Under the pieces are notes generated by a model that ran no database searches, was not told the origin of the DNA, and saw nothing but the letters and a program-made list of their open reading frames with translations. From Streptomyces sp. RPA4-2 (GTDB taxonomy: Bacteria > Actinomycetota > Actinomycetes > Streptomycetales > Streptomycetaceae): a stretch of DNA of 64,000 bases. The stretch covers positions 930,001-994,000 of the forward strand of contig NZ_CP050975.2 of NCBI RefSeq assembly GCF_012273515.2, in the 5' to 3' direction. The position numbers and the translations under genes are program-made. Positions 56,623 to 62,058 of the stretch are shown here, one piece after another (positions within the stretch are counted from its first letter, which is position 1; every line of letters starts with the position of its first letter).

Positions 56623-57765
56623 TCAGCTCGTGAAGGGCACCCGCGCCGCGGGCACGGGTGCCGTCGCGAACGGGTGTCGCCACAGGCCCCGCGCGGCGAG
56701 GCGCGGCAGGACGCCTTCGCCGAACCAGTAGGCCTCCTCGAGGTGGGGGTAGCCGGAGAGGACGAACTCGTCGATGCCGAGGGCGTGGTACTCGGCGACA
56801 CGCTCGGCGACCTCGTCGTGGCTGCCGACCAGGGCGGTGCCCGCGCCGCCACGGACCAGGCCGATCCCGGCCCACAGGTTGGGGTGGATCTCCAGGCTCT
56901 CGCGGCTGCCGCCGTGGAGTGCGCGCATGCGTCGCTGCCCCTCCGACTCGCTGCGGGCGAGACCGGCCTGCACGGACTTCACGGTCTCCGGGTCGAAGCC
57001 GTCGAGGAGCCGATGGGCCTCGGCCCAGGCCTGCTCGGAGGTGTCACGGGTGATGACGTGCAGCCGGATGCCGAAGCGCAGAGCTCGTCCTTCGCGCTCC
57101 GCGAGCCGGCGTGCCCACGCGATCTTCTCGGCCACCTGGGCCGGCGGTTCCCCCCAGGTCAGGTACACGTCCGCGTGCCGGGCGGCGACCTCGCCCGCGA
57201 TCGGCGAGGAACCGCCGAAGTAGATCTCGGGCACCGGGTCGGGGAGGTGGGCCAGCCTGGCCTCCTCGACCCGCAGGTGCTCGCCCGCCAGGTCGACGGT
57301 CTTGCCGTCCCACAGGTCCCGGACGATCTGGAGGAACTCACCGGTACGGCGATACCGGGCGTCCTTGTCGAGGAAGTCACCGTAGGCGCGCTGCTCGTGG
57401 CTCTCGCCGCCGGTGACCACGTTGAGCAGGAGCCGGCCCCCGGTCTGCCGCTGATAGGTGGACGCCATCTGCGCGGCGAGCGTCGGCGAGACGAAGCCGG
57501 GCCGGAAGGCGACCAGGAACTTCAGACGCTCGGTGTTCTGGCTGACCATCGCGGTGGTCAGCCAGGCGTCCTCGCACCAGGCGCCCGTGGGGGTGAGCGC
57601 GCCGACGAAGCCCAGATCCTCGGCGGCGCGGGCGATCTGGCTCAGATACCCGACCGTCGGCGGCCGGTCGCGGCCGGAGCCGGTGGCGGGGGTGCCGTGG
57701 CCGCCGCCGACGACGTGCCGGCTGTCTCCGTTGGTGGGCAGGAACCAGTGGAAGGTGAGGGACAC
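56623..57765 (-). CDS. FMNH2-dependent alkanesulfonate monooxygenase-like (LLM class)
   Basis: A 380-residue luciferase-like flavin monooxygenase closest to SsuD-type enzymes. The TIM-barrel motifs LTFHWFLPTNGDSRHVVGGG, FLVAFRPGFVSPTLAAQM and LLLNVVTGGESHEQ are typical. Such enzymes cleave C-S bonds of alkanesulfonates to aldehyde and sulfite with FMNH2 and oxygen. The GTG at 57765 follows GGAG. It is the last gene of the sfnG-FMN reductase-sfnB operon, 14 bp after sfnB. The reduced flavin should come from the reductase at 59023-59577. Confidence 0.9.
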   Translation of the reverse strand: MSLTFHWFLPTNGDSRHVVGGGHGTPATGSGRDRPPTVGYLSQIARAAEDLGFVGALTPTGAWCEDAWLTTAMVSQNTERLKFLVAFRPGFVSPTLAAQMASTYQRQTGGRLLLNVVTGGESHEQRAYGDFLDKDARYRRTGEFLQIVRDLWDGKTVDLAGEHLRVEEARLAHLPDPVPEIYFGGSSPIAGEVAARHADVYLTWGEPPAQVAEKIAWARRLAEREGRALRFGIRLHVITRDTSEQAWAEAHRLLDGFDPETVKSVQAGLARSESEGQRRMRALHGGSRESLEIHPNLWAGIGLVRGGAGTALVGSHDEVAERVAEYHALGIDEFVLSGYPHLEEAYWFGEGVLPRLAARGLWRHPFATAPVPAARVPFTS

Positions 57766-57779
57766 GTGACGGTCTCCGT

Positions 57780-59018
57780 TCAGAGCAGGCCGTGGCGGGG
57801 TGGCTTGGTGCCGTTGAGCGCGTGGCGGCCGATGTGCTGGATCTTCCAGCGGGACGGGTCGTGCAGGGTGTGGGTGCGGGCGTCCCGCCAATGGCGGTGC
57901 AGATTCAGGGAGTCGAGTGCCGAGCGGGTACCGGCCAGTTCGAAGAGGGCGCCCGCCACCTCCACGGCGGTGGCGGAGGTGTGCACCTTCGCGGCGGCCA
58001 CGGCGATCGACGCCTCGGCCGCCGAGTCCTCGGTGAGGTCGTCGCGGGCCGCGTCGACCGCGCGGGCCGCGGCGCCGAGCAACGCCCCGGACGCCCGTAC
58101 CTGGACGGCGAGTTCACCGAAGCGCTGGATGAGGAGCGGATCCTCGGCCGCGCTGTCCACGCCGCTCTCGAACCACGGCCGGCTCTTGGTACGGACGAAC
58201 TCGGCGGCCTCGGCGAACGCGCCGGCCGCGATCCCCGCGTCGATGGCGGCGTGCAGCAACTGGGCCACCGCCCCGTGGAGCTGGGGTCCGCGGAAGGTGA
58301 GGTGGTGCGGGACGACCCGGTCGGCGGGGACGGGGACGGCGTCCAGGCGGACGGTGCCGCTCGCCGTCGTGCGCTGCCCCATGCCGTCCCAGTCGTCGAC
58401 GACCGTGACCCCGTCCGCGTCCCGGGGAACGTACGCGACGTGCAGGTCGTCGTCCTCGGTGCGGGCCAGTACGGGGATCCAGTCGGCGAAGAGCGCGCCC
58501 GTGGAGTAGTGCTTGACGCCGGTCAGGAGGTACGAGCCGTCGGGCCGCGGGTCCAGACGGGTGCGGATGTCCTGGACGTGCCGGGTGCCCGCCTCCGACT
58601 GGGCGTTGCCGAAACGCCGTCCCGCCAGCACCTCGCCGAAGAAGAACGCCCGCTGCTCGTCCGTTCCCTGACGGCGGATCACGTTCACGTACACGAAATG
58701 GTTCTGCGGGATCTGGGCGAGGCTGGCGTCGGCGGATGCCAGCAGCCGGAAGATCTCCGCGAGGGTCTCCTGGCGGACATCCGCCCCGCCGTACTCCGCG
58801 GGCACGGTGACGGCGAGCAGCCCGGAGGCCGAGAGGCGATCCAACTCGGCGCGGGGCAGCCGCCGTTCGGAGTCCCGCGTGGAGGCCCCGGTGCGGAACT
58901 CCGTGGCGAGCGCGGCGGCGACGGCCAGGGCCTCGGCGTCGTCGGCGATCACTTCGGCGGATGTGTGGTCGGACGCCGTCCGGGCCGACACGTCCTCAGG
59001 CGTCGTCTGCGCGGTCAC
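57780..59018 (-). CDS. sfnB: SfnB-family sulfur acquisition oxidoreductase
   Basis: A 412-residue acyl-CoA dehydrogenase-fold flavoprotein of the SfnB family. The diagnostic QIPQNHFVYVNVIRRQGTDE and FGNAQSEAGTRHVQDIRTRL are present, as is the C-terminal LHDPSRWKIQHIGRHAL. SfnB proteins occur with sfnG in dimethyl sulfone and related organosulfur utilisation; the exact reaction is not settled. The GTG at 59018 lies 4 bp after the FMN reductase stop, so translation is coupled. It contributes to sulfur acquisition with its operon partners. Confidence 0.92.
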   Translation of the reverse strand: MTAQTTPEDVSARTASDHTSAEVIADDAEALAVAAALATEFRTGASTRDSERRLPRAELDRLSASGLLAVTVPAEYGGADVRQETLAEIFRLLASADASLAQIPQNHFVYVNVIRRQGTDEQRAFFFGEVLAGRRFGNAQSEAGTRHVQDIRTRLDPRPDGSYLLTGVKHYSTGALFADWIPVLARTEDDDLHVAYVPRDADGVTVVDDWDGMGQRTTASGTVRLDAVPVPADRVVPHHLTFRGPQLHGAVAQLLHAAIDAGIAAGAFAEAAEFVRTKSRPWFESGVDSAAEDPLLIQRFGELAVQVRASGALLGAAARAVDAARDDLTEDSAAEASIAVAAAKVHTSATAVEVAGALFELAGTRSALDSLNLHRHWRDARTHTLHDPSRWKIQHIGRHALNGTKPPRHGLL

Positions 59019-59022
59019 GGGG

Positions 59023-59577
59023 TCAGCCCGCCGCGGCCAGCAGCGGTGTGCGGCCCAGGGCCGCCGAGAACTGGTCGACCACCTGGGCCAGGGCCTCGGC
59101 CGTGCCCGGTGCCAGGGTGACGCCGCCGTCCTCCCCGGTGGTGATGTCCTTGTCCAGGGTGAACCAGCCCTGGACGATGTGCGCGGCGCCCATGGAGTTG
59201 AGCACCGGCCGCAGGGCGTAGTCGAGGGCGAGGACATGCGCGGTGCTGCCGCCGGTGACGAGCGGCAGGACGGTCTTCCCGGTGAGCGCGTACTGCGGGA
59301 GCAGGTCGAGCAGCGCCTTGAGGACACCGGAGTAGGCCGCCTTGTAGACGGGGGTGCCGATGACCACACCGTCGGCGCGGGCGAAGAGTTCGGTCGCCTC
59401 GACGATGGCGGGATGCTCGAAGTCCGCGCCGAGCAGCGCCTCCGCGGGGATCGTACGGACGTCGAGCGGGATGACCCGGTGCCCCTGCGCGACCAGCCGG
59501 CCGTCCAGGTGGCGCAGGAGTTTCGCGGTACGGGAGGAGACGGAGGGACTGCCGGAGACGGACAGGACGGTGGCCAT
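59023..59577 (-). CDS. NADPH-dependent FMN reductase (SsuE/MsuE type)
   Basis: A 184-residue flavin reductase. The phosphate loop is SGSPSVSSRTAKLLRHL (about 8-24), and GTPVYKAAYSGVLKALLDLL matches SsuE-family FMN reductases. It supplies FMNH2 to the monooxygenases SfnG and SsuD-like encoded on either side. The ATG at 59577 is used. It lies 34 bp downstream of sfnG and 4 bp upstream of sfnB, firmly inside the operon. This is separate from the unrelated FMN reductase at 1614. Confidence 0.92.
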   Translation of the reverse strand: MATVLSVSGSPSVSSRTAKLLRHLDGRLVAQGHRVIPLDVRTIPAEALLGADFEHPAIVEATELFARADGVVIGTPVYKAAYSGVLKALLDLLPQYALTGKTVLPLVTGGSTAHVLALDYALRPVLNSMGAAHIVQGWFTLDKDITTGEDGGVTLAPGTAEALAQVVDQFSAALGRTPLLAAAG

Positions 59578-59611: not shown

Positions 59612-60736
59612 TCAGACGTGCGCGGGGACGGACTCGGGCTCGGTGTCGGGCAGCCCGGCCTCCAACTCGCGTACCAGGGGCAGCACACGGCGGCCGAAGT
59701 ACTCGACCTCCTCGTGGTAGTGCAGGAAGCCGAGCAGGAGGAGGTCGACGCCGAGGCGCTTGTAGGCGACGATCCGTTCGGCGATCTGCTCCGGGGTGCC
59801 GATCAGCCCCGTCCGGAAGCCGTCGTTGTACTGGACCAGGTCCTCGAAGCGGGAGTCCTGCCACATGCCCTTGCCGTCGGCGGTGGACTGTCCGGCCTGC
59901 TTCACCGCGGCGCCGAAGCCCTCGACTGCCTCGGTGTCGGCCCGGGCGACGATCTCGCGCAGGGTGTCGCGGGCCTCGGCCTCGGTGTCCCGGGCGATCA
60001 GGAAACCGTTGAGACCGAACCGGGGTGGCCTGCGGCCGGCCTGCTCCGCCGACGCCCGCACGTCCGCGATCTGTTCGACGACTCCGCCGAAGTCCTTGCC
60101 GTTGGAGAAGTACCAGTCGGAGACCCGGCCCGCCATGGCGCGGGCGGCGGTGGAGTTGCCGCCCTGGAAGATCTCCGGGTGCGGACGCCCGGGGACGTCG
60201 AGGGGCTTGGGCTTCAGGGTGAAGTCGCGCAACCGGTAGAAGTCACCGGCGAGTTCGGCGTGGTCCTCGGTCCAGATCCGGCGCAGCGCGCGGATGAACT
60301 CCTCCGAGCGGCGATAGCGCTCGTCGTGCTCCAGCCACGGTTCGCCGAGCGCGGTGAACTCTGCCTTGAACCAGCCGCTGACCACGTTGACGGCGAAGCG
60401 GCCGTTCGACAGATGGTCGGCGGTGGCGCCGAACTTGGCCAGGACACCCGGGTGCCACAGGCCCGGGTGGACGGCGGCGATGACCTTCAGCCGCTCGGTC
60501 GCCAGGAGCAGGGCGAGGCTGAAGCCGGTCGACTCGTGCTGGAACTCGGCACCGTAGCCGGCCATGTAGCGGACCTGGCTGAGCGCGTAGTCGAAGCCGT
60601 TGTTCTCGGCGAGGACGGCCAGTTCGCGGTTGTAGTCGTAGCCCCAGTCGGTGCGCTGCTCGATCGTGCTGGTGACCAGGCCGCCGCTGACGTTGGGGAC
60701 CCAGTAGGCGAAGCGGACGGGTTCGGTTGCGGACAC
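59612..60736 (-). CDS. sfnG: Dimethyl sulfone monooxygenase SfnG
   Basis: A 374-residue luciferase-like monooxygenase. The N-terminal FAYWVPNVSGGLVTSTIEQR, the AVNVVSGWFKAEF stretch and FQGGNSTAARAMAGRVSDWY are characteristic of SfnG. The enzyme uses FMNH2 and oxygen to convert dimethyl sulfone to methanesulfinate, a step in sulfur acquisition. The GTG at 60736 follows GGGAG. It is the first structural gene of the organosulfur operon, with a 27-codon leader peptide 174 bp upstream. Confidence 0.93.
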   Translation of the reverse strand: MSATEPVRFAYWVPNVSGGLVTSTIEQRTDWGYDYNRELAVLAENNGFDYALSQVRYMAGYGAEFQHESTGFSLALLLATERLKVIAAVHPGLWHPGVLAKFGATADHLSNGRFAVNVVSGWFKAEFTALGEPWLEHDERYRRSEEFIRALRRIWTEDHAELAGDFYRLRDFTLKPKPLDVPGRPHPEIFQGGNSTAARAMAGRVSDWYFSNGKDFGGVVEQIADVRASAEQAGRRPPRFGLNGFLIARDTEAEARDTLREIVARADTEAVEGFGAAVKQAGQSTADGKGMWQDSRFEDLVQYNDGFRTGLIGTPEQIAERIVAYKRLGVDLLLLGFLHYHEEVEYFGRRVLPLVRELEAGLPDTEPESVPAHV

Positions 60737-60910
60737 GGAGAACTCCCGGTGTACGGAGAGGGCATGACGAACGGGGGCCCGGCGTGTCACGGCGACAGCG
60801 GGCGGACAGCGGCATGCGGCAGGGAGCGGAGAAGGCGGCGAGGTGCCCCGCGGGGAGAATTCACCTGCGGGCGGGCGGCCTGTGCGAAGGGGACCCTACC
60901 GTCGGGATCG

Positions 60911-60994
60911 TCAGGCTTCGCGACAACAGAAGGCGCTGGAGACACGCGCGAGGTCGACATGGCGTCGTCGCGTGAGGTCCGGCTGCGTCTTCAT
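60911..60994 (-). CDS. Cysteine-rich leader peptide of the sulfur operon (27 aa)
   Basis: An ATG at 60994-60992 opens a 27-codon frame ending with TGA at 60913-60911. Its product contains RRRHVDLARVSSAFCC, the recurring motif of streptomycete putative leader peptides found before sulfur-assimilation genes: basic HVDL core, serines and cysteines near the end. The two adjacent cysteine codons suit ribosome stalling when Cys-tRNA is scarce, as in the cysteine attenuators described in actinobacteria. It lies 174 bp before sfnG on the same strand. The rest of 60737-61131 shows no other gene. Confidence 0.82.
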   Translation of the reverse strand: MKTQPDLTRRRHVDLARVSSAFCCREA

Positions 60995-61131
60995 GTGGCC
61001 GATCGTGGCAGCCACCGGTCCGGACCGTCAAGGAACGCCGGGCCGGTCTCGCATCCCGGACCGGCGAATTTCACGAAGGCGTGACAGGGCAGACCTTGAA
61101 CCGCCCGCGACCGTGGCCGCATTCTGCTGCC

Positions 61132-62058
61132 GTGCGCACAGAGCAGCTGGAATACATCGCGGCGGTCACCCGGCTCGGCTCGTTGCGCCGGGCCGCCGAG
61201 GAACTCCACCTCTCGCAGCCGGCGCTGAGCGAGACCGTACGGAATCTGGAGCGGGAACTCGGTGTCGACCTGCTGGAGCGCAAGCGGTCCGGCGCCCGGA
61301 TGAGCGCCGAGGGACGCGAACTGCTGCCGCACATCATCAACGTGCTCGACGCGGTCGACCGGCTGCGCGGCGCGGCCGGCGAGCAGCACCGCATCAGCCG
61401 GATGGTCCGGGTCGGCACGGTGAACGCGGCGACGGTGCCGCTGCTCATCCCGGTCGTCCGGGGTTTTCGCGCGACGCACCCGCAGACACAGGTCGAAGTG
61501 GTCGGCGCCCAGCAGCCGGAGATCCACCGGGGCCTCTCGGAGGGCGGTTTCGATCTGGGGCTGGTGAACCACCTGGACGGCGACGACATGCCCGCCGACT
61601 TCGAGTCCACCGAGCTGCTGCGCGGGCGGCCGGTGGTGTGCGTACGCCCGGACAGCCCGCTGGCCGCGTCGTCCGCCGTGTCGCCGTCCGACCTCCTCGA
61701 CGGACGCGAGCCCCTGATCGCGATGCGCTCCGGCTATGTCATGCACCGCTACCTGCATCGGTTCCTGGAGGGCCGGGGGCCGTCCCTGTCGTACTCGACC
61801 GATGGCGCCGAGATGGGAAAGCTCATGGTCGCCGAGGGCCTGGGCGCCACCGTACTGCCCGACTTCAGCGTCATCGGCGATCCCCTGGAGCGGTGCGGCG
61901 CCCTCACGTACAGGCCGCTCACCGACGCCGCGACACGGGTCCTGCTGATGCTCCGGCGCCGCAGGACGGACTCCCTCCCCCGCGCCGCGGGCGACCTGCA
62001 CGACGCGTTCGTGCGCAGGTCCGCGGAGCTCGGCGGCAGCCTGGCGACGAGGGCCTGA
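61132..62058 (+). CDS. LysR-family regulator of the organosulfur operon
   Basis: A 308-residue LysR regulator. The winged helix (1-60) contains SLRRAAEELHLSQPALSETV; the effector-binding domain fills about 90-300. The GTG at 61132 gives the start MRTEQLEYIAAVTRL. It is divergent from the sfnG operon across a 395-bp gap that also holds the leader peptide. Sulfonate and sulfone genes are often governed by LysR-type regulators, so control of the operon is the simplest reading. The effector may be a sulfur metabolite, by analogy only. Confidence 0.92.
   Translation: MRTEQLEYIAAVTRLGSLRRAAEELHLSQPALSETVRNLERELGVDLLERKRSGARMSAEGRELLPHIINVLDAVDRLRGAAGEQHRISRMVRVGTVNAATVPLLIPVVRGFRATHPQTQVEVVGAQQPEIHRGLSEGGFDLGLVNHLDGDDMPADFESTELLRGRPVVCVRPDSPLAASSAVSPSDLLDGREPLIAMRSGYVMHRYLHRFLEGRGPSLSYSTDGAEMGKLMVAEGLGATVLPDFSVIGDPLERCGALTYRPLTDAATRVLLMLRRRRTDSLPRAAGDLHDAFVRRSAELGGSLATRA

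Follow-up and report, generated by a model that had tools for sequence, protein, structure and literature searches.

A leader peptide with cysteine codons upstream of the sfnG operon of Streptomyces sp. RPA4-2 and its possible role in translational attenuation

Known cysteine leaders and the locus upstream of sfnG

Polycysteine leaderless ORFs of the Ms5788A type (NCBIfam NF042933) were reportedly described in mycobacteria by Canestrari et al. in 2020. In arrest peptides of the TnaC type, conserved nascent residues lie about 11–12 codons before the stalling codon, which is a stop; we know of no sequence relation between TnaC and the HVDL-containing leaders considered here.

Actinobacterial leaders with cysteine codons are a known kind of element, as far as the accessible parts of the respective papers go (PMC8079986, PMC9031893, PMC9094748, PMC4633059, PMC13236596, PMC8632094, PMC1262725, PMC4833913). 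The mycobacterial cys leaders presented in 2005 (PMC1262725, accessible part) are, like the leader analysed here, short ORFs that lack a terminator and have Cys codons close to the stop, but their Cys codons form runs, and that part of the paper does not name Streptomyces in connection with cysteine. The Rhodobacterales cysS leader uORFC-8-2 also has Cys codons in a leader ORF; however, according to the available text (PMC8632094), it belongs to another phylum, possesses an intrinsic terminator and uses predominantly UGC.

The DNA analysed (hereafter, the window) is a stretch of 64,000 nt corresponding to positions 930001–994000 of the single-contig 9.86 Mb genome of Streptomyces sp. RPA4-2. 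The original prediction placed a 27-codon frame with a product containing RRRHVDLARVSSAFCC on the minus strand upstream of sfnG, and this frame was found at 60994–60911; its full product, up to the stop codon, is MKTQPDLTRRRHVDLARVSSAFCCREA. Two Cys codons near the leader end, followed by 174 nt and then sfnG, were also correctly foreseen: the codons of Cys23 (60928–60926) and Cys24 (60925–60923) are both TGT, and 174 nt separate the leader stop from the GTG start codon of sfnG at 60736. The elements of the leader and of the sfnG translation start are as follows:

60911–60994, minus strand: leader ORF, 27 codons and a stop, ATG start, match to NF042934
60950–60961, minus strand: HVDL core of the leader peptide (His is position 0), assigned from sequence
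60926–60928, minus strand: TGT codon of Cys23 (+11), proposed pausing codon; TGT in 186/186 leaders and 234/234 distinct Cys-bearing motifs
60923–60932, minus strand: Cys-codon stretch CTTCTGTTGT, candidate anti-Shine–Dalgarno sequence; 9/10 positions can pair with 60743–60752
60743–60752, minus strand: ribosome-binding region of sfnG, ACACCGGGAG, 10 nt upstream of the GTG start codon; the loci L109 and L110 keep this string

The neighbouring genes were named using NCBIfam profiles with curated cut-offs:

59612–60736, minus strand: sfnG, dimethylsulfone monooxygenase, GTG start (TIGR04021, 627 bits, cut-off 383)
59023–59574, minus strand: SsuE-type NADPH-dependent FMN reductase (TIGR03567, 223 bits, cut-off 164)
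57780–59000, minus strand: sfnB, stretch scanned, start codon unsettled (TIGR04022, 566 bits, cut-off 431)
56623–57852, minus strand: SsuD-like alkanesulfonate monooxygenase, stretch scanned, start unsettled (TIGR03565, 467 bits, below the cut-off of 518)
61135–62058, plus strand: divergent LysR-type regulator, GTG at 61135 being the chosen start (many LysR models, all below cut-off)

The predicted resemblance to streptomycete putative leader peptides was borne out by a match to the NCBIfam model NF042934 (cis_reg_atten, 'putative leader peptide'): the score was 37 bits, the cut-off being 27 (E=1.7e-9). The window leader has the same R-R-H-V-D-L-x-R-V-x-S-x-x-C core and, in line with the short ORF ahead of a regulable gene that the family implies, it comprises 27 codons and lies 174 nt before sfnG; the model as displayed, however, gives neither an operon nor a codon rule or a mechanism. 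With the Ms5788A type the window leader shares a leader ORF, probably leaderless in the window, Cys codons and an association with sulfur genes, but it contains two Cys codons instead of a run and scored 25.7 bits against the NF042933 (leader_Ms5788A) cut-off of 45. The related profile NF042936 (leader_Ms4527A) gave 21.1 bits, far under its cut-off of 45.

In the same genome, 11 matches of the NF042934 type were found, nine above the cut-off and two just below it. Ten of these leaders precede genes that, by their Pfam domains, encode luciferase-like monooxygenase, cysteine dioxygenase, ThiS family, nitrite/sulfite reductase, flavin reductase, GST C-terminal, ABC permease, rhodanese, extracellular solute-binding and 2OG-Fe(II) oxygenase proteins. 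The leader before the 2OG-Fe(II) oxygenase gene (L012, HVDYVRVTSMGCRPSA) is below the cut-off (21.8 bits) and also has TGT at +11. Leader matches occurred in all 101 genomes of the genus sample (E up to 0.01; 3 to 16 per genome) and in 131 of the 197 genomes of the class sample (E up to 1e-4), while 14 control genomes gave none at either threshold; relaxing E to 10 brought up weak matches in 10/14 control genomes, none of them above the cut-off. The window leader itself is one more member of an already known leader family. What this analysis adds is the association with sfnG, the fixed TGT at +11, the Cys-less form and the predicted pairing with the ribosome-binding site (RBS); the first three were not met in the openly accessible literature that was searched.

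Conservation of the leader and its promoter

The sfnG locus set consisted of the best 80 of 589 confirmed loci, 65 of which were titled Streptomyces. A stricter leader pattern matched 11 of these 80 loci, L098 among them by chance, and a wider pattern was adopted. It was revealed that a leader of the NF042934 type is located within 800 nt of sfnG in 68 of the best 80 loci, so the conservation of the frame in relatives, proposed as a check, was observed; the 12 loci of this set without a leader belong to Actinomadura (7), Gordonia (2), Microbispora (2) and Spongiactinospora (1). The alignment comprised 69 rows, namely the window and the 68 leader-bearing loci from the best 80 of 589. Over 14 core codons and 46 unique rows, pN/pS was 0.181 in the leader frame compared with 3.7 and 2.8 in the shifted frames. 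Note that the pattern used to select the rows asked for a Cys at any place within 14 residues and fixed part of the core; on the eight codons left free by this pattern, pN/pS was 0.301. Codon comparison thus indicates that the sfnG leader evolves as a peptide. The match to NF042934, the presence of a leader in 68 of the 80 best-listed loci and the frame-specific pN/pS mean that the window frame is more than a chance one.

The expected HVDL-xx-Cys-Cys motif was conserved only in part. In rows preselected for some Cys, the first Cys (+11) is present in 69/69 sfnG leaders of the best-80 set, whereas the second (+12) occurs in 37/69, so the Cys pair did not hold. Judging by these sequences, what is chiefly conserved is a single fixed TGT codon together with the HVDL peptide, and not a Cys pair. 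The linker between the leader and sfnG showed no conserved sequence in the alignment, and its length ranges from 79 to 264 nt among the rows listed.

Two putative promoter boxes were distinguished upstream of the leader:

61026–61031, minus strand: −35 box TTGACG of the leader promoter; TTGAC at a constant distance in 53/69 rows
61002–61007, minus strand: −10 box CACGAT, 7 nt upstream of the ATG; this hexamer occurs in 24 of the 53 TTGAC rows

In these 53 of the 69 rows of the best-80 set, the distance from TTGAC to the in-frame leader ATG is 37 nt (in 51) or 36 nt (in 2), and the TTGAC rows without CACGAT have other hexamers ending in AT. A strict sigma-70 promoter scan found nothing at this site. 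Since the −10 box ends 7 nt before the ATG, the transcript probably starts at the ATG, and the box spacing allows us to assume that it is leaderless.

A Shine–Dalgarno-like sequence precedes the leader in at least 10 of the 16 rows outside the TTGAC spacing. Streptomyces loci in which such a sequence replaces the TTGAC box are L047, L051, L054, L058, L061, L082, L085, L087, L089 and L099; the peptide was thus kept there while the mode of initiation changed.

The fixed codon at +11 and the cysteine-less subfamily

Positions were numbered from the His of HVDL, taken as 0. In seven groups of leaders, with rows chosen for having some Cys regardless of its codon or exact place, position +11 is Cys encoded by TGT in 186/186 cases; these counts come from related sequences and do not represent independent events. 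The other Cys codons from His onward in the same 186 leaders are TGC (156) and TGT (24), and the Cys codons of operon-region genes are TGC (98) and TGT (8). A scan of the fetched loci with a Cys-free pattern, which left out L013–L027 (weak own-genome matches), gave 249 distinct motifs with Cys (234, all TGT), stop (13), Ala (1) or Gly (1) at +11. Asp and the Arg at +5 are present in 234/234 distinct Cys-bearing motifs (R and D/E being part of the search pattern), and the Asp, Arg, His and Val codons vary synonymously. TGT at +11 was also found in all loci parsed from the class-wide (27/27) and genus-wide (28/28) sets, each of which had one further, unparsed locus, and the leaders L306, L307 and L309, which pass the Ms5788A cut-off, carry it as well. 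The fixed codon suggests, on sequence grounds, that the nascent peptide sets the pausing site. tRNA-Cys has the anticodon GCA and reads UGU by wobble.

For the Arg two residues before His, CGA is used in 72 of 233 distinct motifs (60950–60967 in the window, and relatives); among the Arg codons of operon-region genes, CGA is rare (139/4533).

A Cys-less leader of the same genome, MTGKGTNGLTRRLHIDLLRVSSAY followed by a stop (L008), precedes a GST-like gene. Leaders of this HVDL type, with the sequence LTRRLHIDLLRVSSAY before a GST-like gene and a stop at the place of the conserved Cys, were observed in L258–L260 and L292–L305. Five GST-like loci, including that of the own genome, were found by protein; in three of them, the leader ends in HIDLLRVSSAY with a stop codon at +11, and the other two (L261 and L262) have Ala or Gly at +11 and Cys elsewhere. 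A DNA pattern built on the Cys-less ending, and thus presupposing it, matched 14 of 392 genus genomes, and the reversed pattern matched none. In 14/14 cases, the gene after the leader has a similar N-terminal region, and five codons outside the pattern encode LTRRL with synonymous changes. The pN/pS of 0.026 for this set is largely built in, because the search pattern fixed most of the peptide. A Cys-poor leader-like sequence in L289, HIDLLRVCSAI, also has a stop (TGA) at +11. The Ser codons of the Cys-less leaders can form a UCUCCAG/CUGGAGA helix with the RBS, in full in 5/14 and shortened to five pairs in 9/14.

RNA pairing and the mode of control

In one lineage, the leader sequence CTCCTGTTGC over the Ser/Cys/Cys codons is the exact ten-pair complement of the sfnG RBS GCAACAGGAG. 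Over the 69 rows, the mean uninterrupted pairing run was 6.81 in one register compared with at most 2.74 in 23 others. At least 9/10 pairs between the Cys codons and the RBS were found in 38 of the 69 sfnG rows (fewer in the remaining 31 rows of this best-80 set), whereas 7 of 185 RBSs of other genes from the same loci reached this level. Thirty further loci were collected by DNA similarity, 19 of which, including the window, were parsed with a leader and sfnG; among the other 18, nine had at least 9/10 pairs, although some may repeat species of the 69-row set. In duplex energy, the leader end with its RBS stood out only weakly from the same with shuffled RBSs (−20.1 vs. −17.4, sd 4.3). Ensemble folding gave a probability of pairing between the Shine–Dalgarno (SD) sequence and the Cys region above 0.5 in 34 rows and of 0.5 or less in 35. 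When a stretch the size of a ribosome was masked at the first Cys codon, the SD opened by more than 0.2 in 27/69 rows, while control masks in the linker and upstream did so in 1/69 and 3/69 rows, respectively. Covariation was nearly absent: the sfnG tree has only one branch with a two-sided pairing change, represented by two Nocardia rows of poor pairing. In L052, L056 and L123, a leader C faces an RBS G at one pair, but most rows with the leader C keep the RBS A. It is therefore complementarity in one register together with conservation, and not covariation, that supports the predicted pairing.

In the window, CTTCTGTTGT and ACACCGGGAG, both kept in the near relatives L109 and L110, can form 9/10 pairs, two of them G-U, and 5.4% of other RBSs equal that. 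In its ensemble, the probability of pairing between the SD and the Cys region was 0.00; masking the Cys region left the SD closed (0.21 to 0.17), and forcing the helix of the Cys codons with the SD cost 4.6 kcal/mol. In the minimum-energy fold, the SD pairs with UCCCG, a string that directly follows the leader stop and would probably stay uncovered by a ribosome paused at Cys23; it is present in L029 and altered in L109 and L110.

The mutually exclusive hairpins sought as a check were not found: there was no intrinsic terminator-like site in 60600–61200 (0 sites), the window leader RNA folded no better than shuffles (z +1.47; 186/200 shuffles equal or better), and it matched no Rfam family at E up to 1. 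Attenuation of the terminator type was rejected given the lack of such a site in this region and the ordinary fold energy. The alternative structure backed by the relatives is, judging by their sequences, that of the Cys codons against the SD, i.e., translational control.

Leaders of other sulfur genes were compared using 30 loci each, of which 25 (cysteine dioxygenase), 29 (sulfite reductase), 30 (sseA) and 28 (cysO) were parsed. In cysteine dioxygenase leaders (L138–L167), the last Ser-Cys codons CCGTCCTG pair with the RBS CAGGACGG, with a mean helix of 7.44 compared with 4.83–5.82 for other RBSs (25/30 parsed). This is a second, differently placed case of Cys codons as an anti-RBS. For sfnG leaders, the mean helix was 7.57 compared with 4.67–5.26 for other RBSs, except for 7.41 with the cysO RBSs, which have ACAGGAG in common with those of sfnG. 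The mean helices of the cysO (5.47), sulfite reductase (5.35) and sseA (4.85) leaders were not above the cross-controls. Given this mixed result, pairing of the Cys codons with the RBS is one solution within the family and not a rule. It was also rejected as the general reason for TGT, since sulfite reductase (29/29) and sseA (30/30) leaders have TGT without pairing above the cross-control.

The original prediction of cysteine-responsive attenuation stands as the best reading of homology and anatomy, without the terminator hairpins attached to it. A cysteine-responsive translational attenuator before sfnG appears rather likely from the comparison of sequences, and its translational form is favoured by the absence of a terminator and by the complementarity of the Cys codons to the SD in relatives. 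RNA polymerase would start at or beside the leader ATG, and the first ribosome would translate MKTQPDLTRRRHVDLARVSSAF and then meet the TGT of codon 23 (+11). With plentiful Cys-tRNA, it would run to the stop and free the RNA of the Cys codons to pair with the sfnG SD, so that sfnG and the genes behind it would be poorly translated. If Cys-tRNA were scarce, the ribosome would pause with TGT in the A site and cover this RNA; the sfnG site would stay open, and the sulfone/sulfonate scavenging operon would be made. The response to cysteine, the pausing and the leaderless start are the steps that we infer. Translational attenuation fits mycobacterial reports in the accessible parts of papers citing the Ms5788A work.

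Several other explanations should be considered. Control could instead act on transcription, with the translating ribosome shielding the leader RNA from Rho or blocking a terminator, so that read-through would depend on the cysteine state. The C-rich, 174-nt linker and the gaps of 79 to 264 nt among the rows listed would suit this, and Rho-dependent termination is suggested for mycobacterial cys leaders in the accessible part of PMC1262725; we nevertheless regard it as unlikely, because 60600–61200 contains no intrinsic terminator-like site and the linker is unconserved, whereas the Cys-codon stretch and the RBS are complementary in one register. It is still less probable that the leader is a loading device without sensing, from which ribosomes reinitiate at sfnG. 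The upstream ORF is on the same transcript and short leader genes are known to be coupled in this way (PMC4833913, accessible part), but 174 nt from stop to start and the variable distances in relatives are ill-suited to reinitiation, and the fixed TGT would be left unexplained. That the frame arose by chance, or that its product is a small protein with a role elsewhere in the cell, is hardly credible in view of the family match, the conservation, the frame-specific selection and the fixed +11 codon.

An arrest peptide has a somewhat less than even chance, as estimated from the sequences: the HVDLxRVxS nascent chain would pause the ribosome with +11 in the A site, and a shortage of Cys-tRNA or slow termination would act as the trigger. 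Conservation at the peptide level beyond Cys (pN/pS 0.181, and 0.301 on the free codons), the single fixed TGT, the stop at +11 after HIDLLRVSSAY in three of the five GST-like loci and HIDLLRVCSAI in L289 argue for such a peptide. On the other hand, the GST-like relatives L261 and L262 have Ala or Gly at +11, and the conservation may have another cause, e.g., the RNA sequence or translation start-up. As in TnaC, where the stalling codon is a stop, a stop occupies +11 in the Cys-less subfamily; the window leader differs in having a Cys codon at this site, and its stalling is putative. In a broader form, put forward tentatively, the actinobacterial HVDL leaders could be an arrest-peptide family and not poly-Cys counters, in which R-R-[HA]-V-D-L-x-R-V-x-S-x-x would set the A-site codon 11 after His, mostly UGU and never UGC, and a stop in the GST-like subfamily. 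If so, the reading of UGU by G-U wobble would make the leaders especially sensitive to the supply of Cys-tRNA, and the Cys-less peptide before the GST-like gene would sense slow termination or another signal. The fixed UGU and the stop at the same place bear on the old question of what keeps the surrounding peptide conserved when Cys codons are so few.

Under the preferred reading, that of a cysteine-responsive translational attenuator, the sulfone/sulfonate scavenging operon of Streptomyces sp. RPA4-2 would answer to a cysteine signal read by the ribosome besides its LysR neighbour, and the window leader would tie the Streptomyces leaders to the cysteine attenuators of mycobacteria.
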